Positions 9,456 to 20,377 of a stretch of 20,377 bases of DNA are shown here, one piece after another; the stretch's first letter is position 1, and each line of letters opens with the position of its first letter. The position numbers and the translations under genes are program-made. The DNA lies in the NCBI GenBank assembly GCA_910592205.1, contig CAJVPJ010000632.1, positions 1 through 20,377 of the forward strand, given 5' to 3'. The DNA comes from Paraglomus occultum (lineage: Eukaryota; Glomeromycota; Glomeromycetes; Paraglomerales; Paraglomeraceae). The notes under the pieces are model-generated. The model searched no databases, had not been told where the DNA came from, and saw only the letters and a list, made by a program, of their open reading frames with translations.

Positions 9456-11814
9456 TTATATTTTAACTGGAGCATACCGACCCGTCAACGACAAAAAAGT
9501 AATCAATTGAGAATGAACTTCAACTTGGATTGGCTCCACAGGTTCACTTTCTCCATCAACTGATATGTATGTGTTTGCGATAGTCTTAGGAGTTAAACGG
9601 AATGCCTTTACTTTGCAGTAAATCATCTGTGTGGTTACAATGAAAAGAATGAATTCATCAGTTGTGACAAGTGGATCTAAAATCGTACGCACCCAACAAA
9701 TCATTTGGCGTGTTTTCTTTATCTAATGACATACCTCCTTGGCATCGATATGTTTTCCAGTTTCCATTAATCCCATGAATTTAATTGCCTTGGTTCGACT
9801 AACATTCTTTTTAAACGCAAGCATTAGATCCAACAGTCCGTCATTTGGTGAAGCGCAAGGAAAACAGCACATGTCCCTCGCCACATATGGGATCTTTCCA
9901 GCATAAATCATCCAAACATCTTCATTATAAGTAACCCAATCATCCGGTACTTTTTCATCATTGACGGAACCGTAAGTGTCTGCAATAGATCCCGAAATAG
10001 TGTCGTTTGCCGGTGGTCCGGCAGCATTAGAGTTCTGTTGTGAATTACGATACGATTCTTTGATTGTTTGGAGATTGTCTTGTTCAATCTTTACGGCTAT
10101 TTCACAGCTATAGCGTTTGCCTTGAAGGATGCACTTGAGTGCACCCCAAGTAAAGCGCAGATCACCCATCCATCTGAATCGCAATGTAACGAGGAAAGTG
10201 AGAAGAGGGGAAAAAGCTGTTGGACGAAAAGAGTTTGGGAGCAAAATGCGGGAAGGGAAAGGTTTCGCGTGTACATGAAGAATACTATCTCACCTAAGAT
10301 GCTCTGTGCCCAGATCACAATCAGCCACAATGCCATAAGTCTGGGAAATAAAGCTGAAGTAGCGGTTATTTCCTTGAGTTATTGAGCAGATATCCATTTT
10401 GAACGGTTTGCCTAAAAGATGACGTAATTGCGTTCGCATAAGATGGCAAACAACACCTTGCGAAGAGATTCTCAACAGAGTTTGCAAGCTCAGTCCACAC
10501 CTTTTATGACGCCCAAAGCAGAATATGAAGCACTGTATCCATATTTATTTCCGGTGAGAGAAACCGATATGCCATTTCCACTGCCTATTGATTATTGCAT
10601 CAATAATAATGTTACAAAAGTTTATATATTGAAATTCTAGCTTTCTTACTTTACGTATTTACGTACCACCCGGGATACATCCAATGGGAGTCGTAATTTC
10701 GGCTGCGTCTGGTCTCGATAACAAGCCGTTAATTAGTTCATGCACAATCCCGTCACCACTTACGGCGACTATGGCATCGTACATGCTAAGCGCCAGCGTT
10801 TGTGCTATTTCTTTAGCATGATTTTTTTTTTCAGTAACTGAGTGTTGGGGGAGACATTAAGATTAGAACTCCAATCGTTAAAAGGATATTGCGTGTCACG
10901 ATCGCAAGTCATGATGTTGTCACATCTATAATAAGCCAGCTAAAACTACCGTCTGGAAATTTTTTTGCTTATACGTCTTCTGTCGAATCGATACGTACAC
11001 GTGATATCCCATGTGCATCCAGCAGCTTCGAACAGTGGCTTTACTTCCTTATGAAATGTTTCCGATGCTTTACCAGTGCCGCTGAACGGGTTGATGATCA
11101 CTTTGAAACGCTTGCCTCTCTTGGAATCTGCACAAATTGGATTAGGTAATGGTAAACCATTGGAATATTACATGTATTCACCATTGCGTTCTAAGATCAT
11201 GTGCCCTTGCACCCAAGGTTAATTTTATAAATACCTTTGTATGCGGCCCTATTTACTAACGGTACCCATTCTTTAGCCTTTTCGGCATCGGCTGCTACTA
11301 ATTCGATGGTTTTGACCCGCAGTTTATTAGATCCCTTTGGAGATGCAACCTGTATCTTGATGCTATTTTCATCTTCCAAAGTAACATTCAAGACATTTAG
11401 GGCGGGAATTGATTTTATGCCGCCTAAATCCAGCATTAAAAGCGCATAAACAATGAAGTTGCTTATTCGTCAGTAACTCCAATTCTCTCCCAAATTCATG
11501 ACATTAATCAACCGTTGGATGAACCACTAATACACACTTTGAGCAGAAGACCAGTTGACAGTTCGAACGTTTCCTATAGGAAGTGTCGGAGTCATACTGG
11601 TGTGTTATGGGCAAAGATTCATGGAGACTTTATCACAGCAGCACAAATGATAAGAAACTTCTACAAAGGTTGGGGACTCCTTTTCTATGCGGAAAAATAC
11701 GACATTACATAATTGTTAAAACGTACCGTTTGGACGAAAGGCGATATTGTCTCCATCGAACGAAACAGAGCAAGACTTGGAGCCTATAGTTGCATCCAGT
11801 GTTTGCGTGGTCAT
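9456..11814 (-). CDS. Sphingoid long-chain-base (sphingosine) kinase, 9 exons, 474 aa
   Basis: The enzyme phosphorylates sphingosine/phytosphingosine with ATP to give the 1-phosphate, the entry to sphingolipid breakdown and signalling; family members act at membranes. Exons, all minus strand: 11814-11727, 11573-11538, 11423-11235, 11127-10999, 10837-10667, 10584-10501, 10411-10294, 10173-9735, 9626-9456. The joined reading frame is open throughout (1425 nt), and every intron (82-161 bp) is GT..AG. Residues 1-104 form the N-terminal domain. The diacylglycerol-kinase-type catalytic domain follows, with NPFSGTGKA near 117, SGDGIVHELING at 174-185 (D176 in the SGDG motif), PGGSGNG at 203-209 and DICSITQG later. 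The block LGTEHLRWMGDLRF is typical of the family, and SVDGE near 440-444 is the C-terminal conserved motif. A polar Asn/Ser-rich insert lies in exon 8. The start was chosen because MTTQTLDATIGSK fits the family's N-terminus. It is comparable to LCB4/LCB5 of yeast but shorter. No damage is visible. Confidence 0.93.
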
Positions 11815-15297: not shown

Positions 15298-16874
15298 ATG
15301 TTGCGTTACAATGTACGGACTTCGTTTGTTCGTCTTTCCCCAGGTAATCCTTTGAATGCGTCCAGTATGGATCGTTTGCATACTCGTGCGCTGATTCGAA
15401 AAAAAAAAAGAGATATCAACCCCCAATTTTTTCAATCCTATTCCAGTGAATCTTTTCCACAAATCGGCTCAGAGAACCCTTTCTTCTACGGCTATCCGAA
15501 ATTCGGTTTATGATGACACTGTTTGGAATATGCGTTTGACAAAAGATACAAAAGTCATCTGTCAAGGGATAACCGGTCACCAGGTACTGCAAAAAACAAA
15601 GCATGCAAGCCCATTGCTTTAACTTTTTTTATTCAATTGAAGTATCTGTGGATATGGATTTTTCTCTTCACATTAGGGCACTTTTCATACAAAACAAGCA
15701 TTAGATTATGGTACTAATTTCGTAGGTGGCGTATCTCCTGGTAAAGGTGGTAAAACCCACTTGGGACTTCCAGTGTTTAATTCTGTTGCGGAGGTCAGTG
15801 CAGTGAAATTCTAGATGTTGCTCTTCAAATCATATACCCTCGACGCGTATATCTCCATAGTAGGCTGTCCGGGAAGTGAAACCAGATGCTTCTGCTATCT
15901 ATGTCCCACCTCCTTTCGCCGCCAATGCCATCCTAGAAGCTATTGAAGCCGAAGTCCCGCTGGTCGTGGCGATAACGGAGGGTATACCCCAAAAAGATAT
16001 GGTCAAGGTACCTGTGCTTTTTTGTTGTATTAACGAAATGTGTTCACATGGTCATAAACACAATAACTTGATAATATATAGCTTTTCAAGAAAAACCTTA
16101 TTTTAAGTCGCCTTTAATGTTGAGAATCGAATTACGATTTTTTTATTCAGGTCATTAAAGCCTTGAAATCACAAGGAAAGACACGACTGATTGGGCCCAA
16201 CTGTCCGGGGATAATTGCCCCAGAAGCTTGTAAAATTGGAATAATGCCTGGTCATATTCACAAAAAGGGTGTTGTTGGGATCGTCTCTCGATCTGGCACC
16301 TTGACTTACGAGGCTGTCAATCAGACTACCCGTACAAATCTTGGACAGACGTTGTGTGTTGGCATTGGAGGGGATCCCTTTAACGGCACTAATTTTGTCA
16401 ACTGTTTGAGGCTCTTTTTGGATGACGACCACACTAAGGGTGAGTCATTTATCAGAAACAGCATACGCAGAAATAGCGCGATTATTAATATAATACATAA
16501 ATACACACAGGTATCATATTGATCGGGGAGATTGGTGGAACGGCAGAGGAGGAGGCATCTGAATTCTTAAAAAATTACAACCTCACCCGTACCCAACCAA
16601 AACCAGTGGTCGCCTTCATTGCCGGATTGACAGCACCGCCAGGTCGACGCATGGGCCACGCAGGTGCAATCATCGCTGGTGGCAAGGGTGCCGCGCCTGA
16701 TAAGATTAAAGCTCTTGAGAGTGCTGGAGTGATAGTATCAAAGAGTCCAGCGAAAATGGGCCTCCTTCTGAGAGAGGTAACGATAATTGGACATCAAAGT
16801 TTAATGAATTCTATTTGACACTATACTTACGCTAAACGTTCAAACAGGAAATGGAAAGGCGCGGGCTCTTGTAA
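15298..16874 (+). CDS. LSC1: Succinyl-CoA ligase alpha subunit, mitochondrial, 7 exons, 341 aa
   Basis: It is the alpha subunit of the TCA-cycle enzyme that converts succinyl-CoA to succinate with formation of ATP or GTP. It pairs with a beta subunit that sets nucleotide specificity. Exons: 15298-15343, 15447-15583, 15677-15793, 15864-16007, 16151-16439, 16511-16776, 16848-16874. The joined frame is intact (1026 nt) and all introns (70-143 bp) are GT..AG. The first about 40 residues ([15 protein letters not shown]...) are Arg/Ser-rich without acidic residues, a mitochondrial targeting sequence. The CoA-binding domain follows: [48 protein letters not shown] and [10 protein letters not shown]. 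The ligase domain has [20 protein letters not shown] and [10 protein letters not shown], then [11 protein letters not shown]. The phosphohistidine is H294 in [15 protein letters not shown]. Length matches the family (about 330-346 aa). Confidence 0.97.
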
Positions 16875-17049: not shown

Positions 17050-17751
17050 CTAACTGATAATTCTATGGAAAGACATCCAGTTCCACGAGGCGAATTCGAG
17101 ACTTCTTGCGGGATTACGGCTCATTCCCCATTTGAGCGTTATAGTCCATAGTTGACTTATTATTGGCTATCATCTTCTAAGATACTGGCTAAAACTGATT
17201 TTTCTAGACATGGGAGGTCCGCGGAATTACACAGTACAGCGTGGTGCTCGTTTATAATTCGTAGTGGACGTCGCCACAATCCGTTGAGTTGTTGATGGCG
17301 AACGATTTTGTTGAGGAAAATAGTGAGACCGTCCCTCACACTTTGGAAATACGTATTAATTAGATAGCTTTCGACGTAACCGACAAGATCATGGAATAGC
17401 AGTTCGTCGGCTGCTACGATCACATCCAAAAGTGTAATTTCGTCGAGTTCAGATATCACAGTCTTACCGTGAATGATATATCTAAAGAGTATAATCATAA
17501 GAAAAGTAGACGTCTAAGAAAAAGTCAGATAAGAAAAGCGGGGTAATGTCATTTCACTTTTATTCTAGTTTATACAGCTAATAGCGCTCATTCCAGTACT
17601 TTACCGGAGTATGCCTTCAAAGGCATCTGGAGAGATGTTTGGATGCTCTAGTATGTATATGCCGTCTTTCTTCTTGGCCCAGAGCAATGCCTTCGAGTTG
17701 CAGTAAAAGGTTTCTTCTTCCGAGCAGACGGATGGATTTAACAAACACATC
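17050..17751 (-). pseudogene. BTB-BACK domain protein, truncated and frameshifted
   Basis: Two minus-strand exons (17751-17605 and from 17481, intron 123 bp, GT..AG) read NSKALLWAKKKDGIYILEH, PNISPDAFEGILRYIIHGKT, then DVIVAADELLFHDLVGYVES and SVLASILEDDSQ. This is the second half of a BTB/POZ domain followed by a BACK domain, in the style of the very large BTB families of Glomeromycotina (often with Kelch or TLDc ends; substrate adaptors for Cullin-3 ligases). The first half of the BTB domain is missing: the sequence runs into the Fanzor remnant only some tens of bases upstream. At about 17160 the frame stops (TAA), but the BACK sequence goes on in another frame (QLWTITLKWGMSRNPARSLE) to a stop at 17050-17052. 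No C-terminal domain remains. It is a pseudogene. Confidence 0.82.
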
Positions 17752-18555
17752 AATAGTAGGCATTACTAATTACTAAGATTCCCCGAGCGCCAATTTTCAT
17801 CTTTATCCATTACAGTTCCGCAATTTTGGCATTTGTACATCTCGGACCCTCCTATTTTTTGAATGTTTCCACACCAGCTGCAAGTTTTCGAAGTGTAGGC
17901 CTCATTTTGGATAATAACGCGGACTCTTAGTTCTTCTGCCTTAGCCACAAGACGTTAGCGAAATTGATAGTGATATCTTTCGTGTTTTTCGGTTTACCAT
18001 ATTTGATACCTCAAAAGGAGGAATGATGATGGCATCAAATTCGCGAAAGATTGCCGTATCGAGTCGCAAGGGCCTGCTTCTTCTTACGAGGCCATGTGTT
18101 GACACAGACGAATAATTCGTATTGCCTACACGGAGAGTACCACGTGACGGTGTACGAACGCCAGGGTCAATGGAAACTGCATCAACAGAGCCATCCGCTT
18201 GGGTTTCGCGGAGTTGTCTTTGCGCCTCGTAAACCCAGGAAAGTTTCCATTCGTTCGTTTCGCGAATATATGTGAGCTTGCAGTCGGATGTTACGCGGTG
18301 GGGAACAGGCCACTTATTGTTATGACTTTTTTTTTCGAAATGAAGAGGCCATAAATCGCGTTTGTCGTCCGGCGTGATAACAGGCTTATGGCGGTCTGGA
18401 AAGCATTGATGGAGTATGGAGATAGGTGACATAGAAACGGTTCCACATGATTCATGAAAAACTCTGCGCACTAAATCCTTTCGAGAGCGAAATGATAAAG
18501 ATGAATGGTGCGTGGTTGATCCGTTAATTATCCCGTCCCTAAATTAATACACATA

Positions 18556-19710
18556 CAGTGTGTCAAAAAAAAAAAACGGAATAAAAGTTTTATTCACTGT
18601 GTCTCAATGAATGGACCAAATTAAATGGTTTATAGCTTATTTGAAAGGTGAAAACTAACAGATTTATTAATAACAATTAATACGCAATTCTCTCTATGAT
18701 TTTCAATAATACACTCACAGCGATGTCTCATTGAGCCCACAAGATTTTTTATAACAGTATCCGGGATACTTTTCCACTCCTCCACCATAAATTGCTCCAT
18801 CCAGTTTATTGATATTTTTGGGCATCCGTTTCTCCACATTACCCTTCACAATGGCCCACAAATTTTCAATAGTAATAGGATTTAAGTCAGGACTATTGGA
18901 TGGCCAATCCATGACTACTGGAGTATTCTCATCAAGAAAGGCTTTAGCAAGACGACTCGTATGCTTGGGGTCATTGTCCTGCTGAAACCTCCAGTTACTC
19001 ACTCCAAGCATGTGATCAATTTCTGGGAAATGTTGCTGAAAAATTTCGACATAGGATTTGGCAGTTCGTCTTACCAGTTACACAAAATCCACCCCATGCC
19101 ATAATCTTCGTCCAATCTTTTGGCATACACCGAACTGGCCGTGCATTTTTGTGCCAACGTTCTACAGTGTTACGGAAGAGTTGGAATGCTGTTTTCTCTG
19201 AAAAAACAGTGTGGCTCCAGTCATCATTAAGATGTTTCTGGACCATTCTACACGGTTTTGCTTGTGACCATCAGTCAGCATAGGTGTCGCTTTTGGAAGG
19301 CTTTTTTTATATCCAAGATCCTTCAAATGATTGCCAAAGTTCGCGTTGACAAGGAAGTATCACGCCTAATGGATTGCCCGAGCATCTTCGGAGCATGTCC
19401 GATAATTTTTCTGGGGCGACCGTTGCCACCAGCATGTTTCGTGGTTCCAGTTTTTTTAGCTTTTTTATATTATCATATATCGTTAAAAGTGGGATGTTTG
19501 TACGTGCATTGTAATTTTTTCTTGGTAGCAGACATTGTGCAATGTTTTATTCAAAATTTTACATATGTATGCAATAAAAGAGTAGTTTAACTTTATTCCT
19601 AAATCTTTGTGTTTGTTTTGAATCAAACGCGCTGCAAATTGGTCCAAATTGGGCATGCTAGACGCGTTTTTGTGATGCGTACAATTTTCCGAGTTTTTTT
19701 TTGCACACTG
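18556..19710. mobile_element. Tc1-like DNA transposon, 1155 bp, with TA duplication
   Basis: The left end at 18556 reads CAGTGTGTCAAAAAAAAAAA. The right end, in reverse complement from 19710, reads CAGTGTGCAAAAAAAAACTC. Both are flanked by TA (18554-18555 and 19711-19712), the hallmark of Tc1/mariner integration. The similarity stretches about 22 bp, differing in A-run length and one inserted base. The only gene inside is a broken transposase on the minus strand, the same direction as the Fanzor gene around it. Confidence 0.92.
18681..19535 (-). pseudogene. Tc1 family DDE transposase, frameshifted
   Basis: From ATG at 19535 (MSATKKKLQCTYKHPTF) the family order can be followed through several frames: LKKTGTTKHAGGNGRPRKI, LGQSIRRDTSLSTRTLAI, GYKKSLPKATPMLTDGHKQN, KHLNDDWSHTVFSEKTAFQL, MPKDWTKIMAWGGFCVTGKT, WRFQQDNDPKHTSRLAKAFL, DWPSNSPDLNPI, ENLWAIVKGNVEKRMPK and VEEWKSIPDTVIKNLVGSM. 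The second catalytic Asp (DNDPKH) and the final Glu (ENLW) remain. The first catalytic Asp, expected in SDE, is Glu (SEK). Two residues are inserted just before ENLW. At least three frame changes and a deletion in the second HTH region are visible. It is inactive, yet still very close to the family consensus, so it is not ancient. Confidence 0.88.
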
Positions 19711-20377
19711 TATATAGTTAAAAATAAATAAAATAAATAAAAAAGGGAAAAAACCAACAAAGCATAACAATCATACCTAGCAGTTAATGCTTCATCAATT
19801 GCCTCATCGATAACGCTTGCGGGCGCTTTTCCATGTGTACCTTGAAGCAGCATTCCAACACGCACAACAGTTTGCATAAATTTGCGTTCACCCCATACGC
19901 ATAATCTCTAAAGTCTCTTGTCCTCACGTTCATTAACATCTTTTCCAACACGAACATCTGTGTAAAGTCTAAGCTTATTGAGATTTATCGTGATGGACCA
20001 ACACCTGAATCCTTGGTATAGAAGCACGGTGTCTGTTCCAGCGGACAACTGCATTATATGCATATCTCGACAAACCCATCCACCGTTTCAGTAGCTACTT
20101 TTAAAGATGATTTGGATAGACTTTGATTGCAGCGTGTTGTCGTTTGTTGCGTGCTGCCATTGTCCTGATCTTGCGTTTTTTCCCTAGAGTGGGGTTCTCG
20201 TCGGGGGTGACTCTTCTTCCTTGCTTGACTGCAGGGATATCTTGGGAAAGTTCGTGCTCATCGGAGGTCGCTTTGTTGACGAGAACCGTGAGTTTTGTAG
20301 TACAGTCGTACCCCCCTATAATCACACAGTCGGGAACAATGCAACTTTTATTGAAAATGTGCTTATAAAGAGGTTGT

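Follow-up and report, generated by a model that had tools for sequence, protein, structure and literature searches.

A decayed Fanzor locus in Paraglomus occultum and its probable IS607-type element

Paraglomus occultum is an arbuscular mycorrhizal fungus, and at one end of the window (the whole 20,377-nt stretch of its DNA analysed here, which is the entire contig C632) lie broken reading frames resembling an RNA-guided nuclease. Which gene do these pieces come from, what kind of element carried it, and can any of it still function? We searched the genome to which this contig belongs, 32.3 Mb in 1408 contigs, and in what follows C numbers denote contigs of the P. occultum genome, P numbers relative proteins and L numbers loci; the genome itself has been described as small and repeat-poor, with 44 Mb, or 49 Mb in another study (passages of PMC9453076). 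Besides Fanzor hallmarks and signs of decay, the window holds a pair of nested insertions, a precisely defined 3' end and a scrap of TnpA overlapping the Fanzor frame, and related copies and TnpA relics are found elsewhere in the genome. We hold with high confidence that the locus is a dead copy of a P. occultum IS607-type transposon whose cargo was a Fanzor, one that resembles Fanzor2 as judged from its element.

A decayed Fanzor gene on the minus strand

Positions 17729-20302 of the window are, on the minus strand, a decayed Fanzor gene. The initial annotation had proposed a degenerate Fanzor split over frames, and this is borne out by the 60-aa zinc-ribbon frame, which matches PF07282 (Cas12f1-like_TNB) at 9.3e-15 in the Pfam search, and by tblastn with the 469-aa relative P0006, 421 residues of which are covered in the window over 3 frames. 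The motifs it had named on the minus strand are all present in the order that it gave, LKRWMGLSRYAYN at 20053-20091, IDPGVRTP at 18148-18171, IIIPPFEVSNMV at 17995-18030, NEAYTSKTCSWC at 17871-17906, CQNCGTVMD at 17805-17831 and MDKDEN at 17793-17810, and the features of the TnpB/Fanzor superfamily follow one another as RuvC-I, RuvC-II, C4 zinc ribbon and RuvC-III.

Read from the 5' side, all on the minus strand, the coding remains begin with an N-terminal extension frame at 20205..20300 (LQNSRFSSTKRPPMSTNFPKISLQSSKEEESP), whose word order is the same in P0023, P0024, P0026, P0027 and the copy on C517. A basic stretch and N-terminal core, interrupted by stops, follows at 20053..20202 (GKKRKIR...KVYPNHL / LKRWMGLSRYAYN), and the end of exon 1 at 19777..19877 (MQTVVRVGML...DEALTA). 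The RuvC frame at 17944..18543 holds the start of exon 2, RuvC-I with its DPG and the RuvC-II region, with private deletions, and the C-terminal frame at 17769..17948 holds the alternative Glu, the CxxC..CxxC zinc ribbon and RuvC-III. A better match of these fragments to another family had been named as the observation that would speak against a Fanzor. The zinc ribbon matches PF07282, and its best solved relative is the TnpB-like protein L79 (PDB 9b0l, 1e-9); the adjacent RuvC frame (17944-18543) on its own has no match in Pfam or PDB, but it has 26 matches within the same genome, itself included, and aligns with database proteins from metagenomes, Cetraspora and Diversispora.

According to PMC10711439, the Fanzor lineage (Fanzor1, Fanzor2 and pro-Fanzor) is recognised by DPG in RuvC-I and by a catalytic Glu that has shifted to a place six residues ahead of the first CxxC. 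Both features are in the window, as IDPGVRTP (18148-18171) and NEAYTSKTC, the latter with E-AYTSKT-C at 17880-17903. All three catalytic codons of this DPG/alternative-Glu type survive, spread over two frames, namely Asp at 18166-18168 (RuvC-I), Glu at 17901-17903 and Asp at 17799-17801 (RuvC-III). In an alignment of 64 relatives, DPG, the alternative Glu of NEAYTSKTC (64/64) and the second Asp of DRD are all invariant. The RuvC-II stretch named in the initial annotation is present, but the catalytic role probably falls not to its Glu, in IIIPPFE, but to the invariant Glu at 17901-17903. Judged by the motifs of TnpB, the Glu position of ordinary TnpB seems to be P388 here (Pro at least 90% conserved), and the IIIPPFE Glu presumably sits beside this canonical place, now mostly Pro. 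The predicted structure of P0013 is poor (pLDDT 58, pTM 0.41). As a side observation, in six TnpBs of the DPG/alternative-Glu type (P0104, P0105, P0117 from Moorena, P0095, P0098 and P0107) YTSKTVSWT replaces the first CxxC of the zinc ribbon while DPG and the Glu are kept.

TnpA relics and the overlapping frames

A bacterial IS607 TnpA query found 18 places in the genome at E up to 0.01, all of them partial; stops interrupt 7 of these, and another 5 have E values no better than 0.0016 to 0.005. A single Resolvase match was obtained in the genome, at C1247:10869-11048 (2.8e-6), and the C1247 frame, a fragment cut by the contig end, scores 38.8 bits (6.6e-10) against the NCBIfam IS607 TnpA model, whose full-length cut-off is 110. 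On five contigs, C379, C493, C327, C90 and C642, a TnpA match is followed within ~2.5 kb, downstream on the same strand, by a Fanzor match. On C1247 one stretch of DNA can be read as TnpA and, in a second frame, as the N-terminal motif of Fanzor (PYWNTRVAAWSQR / LWLPTETDSVALL), and the two frames look as if they were arranged around one shared intron.

The window has its own counterpart of this arrangement. At 20212..20301, minus strand, a C-terminal scrap of IS607 TnpA (a serine recombinase), TTKLTVLVNKATSDEHELSQDIPAVKQGRR, runs in another frame over the Fanzor N-terminus and matches residues 29-90 of P0015 at 42% over 62 aa, while the neighbouring frame is the Fanzor extension LQNSRFSSTKRPPMSTNFPKISLQSS. 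Residues 2-69 of P0015 in turn match the NCBIfam IS607 TnpA at 3.4e-17 and 62.6 bits, below the full-length cut-off of 110. With TnpA relics closely preceding Fanzor relics on five contigs and a TnpA scrap in the window, the element that carried the gene seems to have been of the IS607 (Fanzor2) type, and not the Tc1. No TnpA serine motif was found within the 680 to 900 nt upstream in any of the four copies read of the window's subfamily (C517, C1363, C622, C25), and none of these contigs is among those with the 18 TnpA matches. An in-frame Met precedes the N-terminal motif in C1363 and C622 and is absent in C517 and C25. In the window's subfamily the catalytic start of TnpA had apparently been lost already, with the overlapping stretch retained as the Fanzor N-terminus.

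Overlap as such is familiar: IS607 genes often overlap (parts of PMC6188088 and PMC9956272), and the IS605-type ISDra2 has a partial gene overlap (a passage of PMC8612924). In a bacterial relative, L090 (Desulfatirhabdium MAG), whose best segment has 73% identity to P0062, the open frames of tnpA and tnpB overlap by 509 nt. We scanned 44 loci (2 bacterial, 42 IMG/VR) and scored 33 (1 bacterial, 32 IMG/VR contigs), having dropped 6 without a scored tnpB frame, 4 without tnpA and 1 (L130) with tnpB far from tnpA. All 33 scored loci, many of which are related to each other and hence not independent, have overlapping tnpA and tnpB/Fanzor frames; the overlap measures 104 to 620 nt, and its register is +1 in every one. 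For a permutation test we used 21 of the 33, leaving out by choice 12 that were near-duplicates or had short tnpA frames. Up to the tnpA end, the +1 frame runs without a stop for 114 to 206 codons, compared with means of 18 to 80 after synonymous permutation, with P<0.01 in 20 of the 21 loci (the exception, L106, at 0.05), and the +2 frame reaches P<0.05 in 2 of 21; the test measures frame openness rather than translation, in a set without IS607 elements bearing ordinary TnpB as control. The N-terminal motif, as defined by our own pattern, occurs in 22 of 38 long proteins, including P0022, which is just 26 to 28% identical to P0013.

From these frames we put forward, at about even odds, that overprinting of the tnpA +1 frame gave tnpB of the IS607 lineage ancestral to Fanzor a genuine N-terminal domain (YWN...LWLPT...), that the two genes became locked over 100-200 codons, and that later Fanzors lacking TnpA, including the window's subfamily, kept the stretch as a fossil of the recombinase gene. 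Somewhat less probable, though a serious contender, is that the overlapping Fanzor N-terminal frame is a mere shadow of tnpA and that Fanzor starts later. The frequent overlap of IS607 genes (per the part of PMC6188088 cited above), the lack of the motif, by our pattern, in 16 of the 38 long proteins and the lack of an in-frame Met just before it in C517 and C25 fit such a shadow. Against it, the openness of the +1 frame exceeds synonymous permutation in 20/21 loci, with +2 below 0.05 in 2/21, the stretch is kept by P0022 and by the window's subfamily, and this subfamily keeps it with no TnpA serine motif within the 0.7-0.9 kb upstream in 4/4 copies read.

If translated, an overprinted N-terminus would explain the origin of the Fanzor N-terminal extension and would support the published route from IS607 TnpB through Fanzor2 to Fanzor1, and it would supply a sequence mark for testing descent, a Fanzor N-terminus still readable as TnpA in another frame. 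The locus is otherwise a system of an already known type, and the overprinted N-terminus is the part of interest. The word "overlap" is absent from PMC10711439 and PMC3627910 and appears once in PMC11061315, concerning guide RNAs; search listings gave no literature on overprinting of Fanzor or TnpB by tnpA, and prior publication is possible.

Intron, insertions, decay and the 3' end of the element

The element copy extends on the minus strand over 17729..20302, from a junction with a MITE-like repeat to an exact 3' terminus, with its 5' part beyond the contig end, and its DNA homology to other copies spans q76-q2649 in minus-strand query numbering. The extent of 17766..20377 originally assigned to the locus does not hold, because the element ends at 17729, 20303-20377 belongs to another repeat and 18556-19710 is a Tc1/mariner relic within an intron. 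The end of the MITE-like repeat (20301..20377, minus strand, its other side beyond the contig end) cuts the Fanzor 5' end: the two are joined at a TA, which is why Fanzor homology has its sharp start at 20302. Eleven other places carry the repeat, at 85-100% within the part that they have in common with the window, and most of seven places compared share ~170 nt. Since two of these places are 100% identical to the window part, the repeat has probably been active recently in P. occultum. At 20301-20377 of the window, as at L068, L069, L071-L073 and L076, the repeat terminates in GGGGGGTACGACTGTA at TA.

A GT-AG intron (GTATGA...TTTAG), inferred at 18539..19776 on the minus strand and enlarged by Tc1, likely separates DEALTA from the next exon. 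Its removal by eye yields ALTARDGIIN where P0006 reads ALTARDNIIN, and the GT-AG stretch is found without Tc1 in C517 and C896. Inside the intron, at 18556..19710 on the minus strand, lies the Tc1/mariner relic, bounded by TA dinucleotides and the inverted ends CAGTGTG...CACACTG; it matches DDE_3 at 2.1e-6 with 28.1 bits, slightly below the curated 28.6, and has 52 DNA matches in the genome, itself included. Mariner-borne Fanzor1 is known (parts of PMC3627910), and a Tc1/mariner with inverted ends and TA between the Fanzor pieces might suggest a Fanzor1 that travelled as its passenger, by capture of the Mariner type. We consider this very unlikely and reject it: the Tc1 element sits inside the Fanzor gene and not around it, its insertion site is empty in C517, C1363 and C896, so that Fanzor copies without Tc1 exist, Tc1 copies lie on many other contigs, and the Fanzor has a 3' end of its own.

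The likely GT-AG intron and the retained catalytic codons might likewise suggest a live gene whose frame changes are introns, with no pseudogene at all. This too has very little probability and was rejected, as the Fanzor frames carry in-frame stops, the C-terminal LLDGA stretch is lost, and comparison with sister copies shows 10 private deletions of 1 to 66 nt, besides 36 private substitutions and 2 small insertions, in an alignment of two separate pieces with 4 sequences in the 5' piece and 5 in the 3' piece. The largest private deletion falls in the conserved stretch between RuvC-I and RuvC-II. Pairwise substitution divergence of the window from C517, C1363 and C896 is 4.5 to 14.9%, varying by copy and piece. 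Among the Fanzor copies private deletions exceed private insertions, a bias that could help explain the small P. occultum genome.

At 17729..17742, minus strand, the element terminates in ...ATCCATCCG, the candidate end of a guide-RNA scaffold, beside the would-be guide. Twelve aligned 3' ends of the subfamily, one of them the window's, all have CCATCCG as their last bases, followed by unrelated flanks. The same end is found in C228, C980 and C913, and a variant, CCTCCCG, in C622; in the stretches read of C571 and C25 there was no CCATCCG end. In other subfamilies CCATCCG occurs in C1356, C880 and C52 and CCAGCCG in C237, and CCATCCG is absent from the stretches read of C109, C36, C71 and C379. 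The 14-mer TTACAATCCATCCG occurs 14 times in the 32.3 Mb, its reversed control not once. Six 3' ends, those on C461, C279, C786, C930, C169 and C1149, are near-identical, with 0 to 2 differences per 75-77 bases. Of the 11 motif places with a known distance, five are separated from a contig end by 61 to 106 nt, and the one on C1149 by 230 nt; with a limit of 150 nt, set post hoc, the probability that five or more of 14 would fall so close to a contig end is ~7e-7. Six near-identical 3' ends near contig ends suggest recently amplified copies that were dropped by the assembly.

Predicted folds of the 3' RNA are weak, with z of -0.86, -2.11 and -1.55 for copies and +0.93 for the window, and an Rfam search of the window gave no match. 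In the predicted folds of C461 and C1356, GATGGAG pairs with the terminal CCATC, and GATGGAG is lost in the window copy; the pairing could possibly be the reason why LLDGA is conserved in both protein and DNA. The LLDGA codons (GATGGAG) are seen to pair with CCATC in the predicted folds of L081 (21-120) and L035 (144-243), with fold energies that are not strong.

Beyond the terminus, starting ~3 nt from the element end, lies a fragment of what we take to be a BTB-BACK-like gene (17163..17726, minus strand), which contains the would-be guide. A search with its 112-aa frame gave 29 further matches in the genome (21-36% identity), the top one presumably in a BTB/TLDc gene; a Pfam search of the flank returned no BTB name. 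In studied Fanzors, RNA from the element 3' end carries ~15 nt of flank as guide (part of PMC10432273). By analogy, the living Fanzor would have bound RNA read from the element's 3' end, with a scaffold ending in CCATCCG and a guide from the flank. By cutting the empty site it would have kept the element from being lost on transposition. The element itself would have been moved by TnpA, either its own or that of a relative. The window copy can no longer do either job, because its gene and its 3' RNA region are both broken. The Fanzor hallmarks on which the first picture of the locus was built are real; it had not recognised that an IS607 TnpA frame overlaps them, that an intron is present, that two insertions are nested in the locus or where the element terminates.

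Four other features of the contig deserve mention. A succinyl-CoA ligase gene on the plus strand, in two frames with CoA-ligase matches, adjoins the element at 16163-16818; a frame at 9726-10244 has a YegS_C (lipid kinase-type) match; a run of 27 C lies near the contig start (79-105); and a 15-bp tandem repeat, ATCATTTCGCCGACA, at 137-184 resembles sequence beside the Fanzor 5' region on C622 and C913 (L066, L034).

Relatives and known systems

The genome contains 24 PF07282 matches, 20 of them above the cut-off, and 65 matches to a P0013 query, all partial, the window being included in both counts. Of the close, active relatives expected elsewhere in the genome, relatives do exist; none of the 17 copies examined, the window included, shows a complete open Fanzor gene, and the copy on C1149 is open over its visible 68 residues, after which the contig ends. 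On C564 (G000:C564:18051-21013) two decayed Fanzor copies lie in opposite orientation within 3 kb. Beyond P. occultum, relatives are found in Diversispora, Cetraspora and Gigaspora, and then come bacterial TnpBs; the closest named non-fungal relatives being bacterial, contamination by a bacterial TnpB might be supposed, but we rejected it as having next to no probability in view of the intron, the many copies on contigs of the same genome, the protein on the Fanzor-copy contig C237 that is 100% identical, over 87% of the query, to a Paraglomus occultum protein (Ambispora and Funneliformis next at 50-55%) and, as a check on fungal neighbours, the split succinyl-CoA ligase gene on the window.

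Among the papers covered by the literature search, none joins Fanzor with Glomeromycot-, and the PDB searches returned no chain named Fanzor among their matches. The present locus adds an arbuscular mycorrhizal fungus to the hosts of IS607-type Fanzors, here bearing an intron and apparently amplified not long ago. By its element the window Fanzor looks Fanzor2-like; the tree of relatives has no certified Fanzor1 row. The best solved relative, L79 (PDB 9b0l), shares the zinc ribbon (1e-9) and matches the family profile at 2.5e-39, but it is an intact protein, and the N-terminal motif of the window family did not align to it. Fanzor1 proteins such as SpuFz1, 600-700 aa in size (a passage of PMC11423790), have the same hallmarks, and the full-length relatives P0023, P0024, P0026 and P0027 have 646-685 aa; unlike Fanzor1, the window-type element looks IS607-like and not like a DDE, Crypton or Helitron carrier. 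From Fanzor2 and the pro-Fanzor TnpB of IS607 the window copy differs in being decayed and intron-bearing, in its arbuscular mycorrhizal fungal host and in that no TnpA catalytic start was found in its subfamily. With them it shares DPG, the alternative Glu six residues before the first CxxC, a 3' terminus at which no inverted end was noticed, and IS607 TnpA in elements of the same genome.
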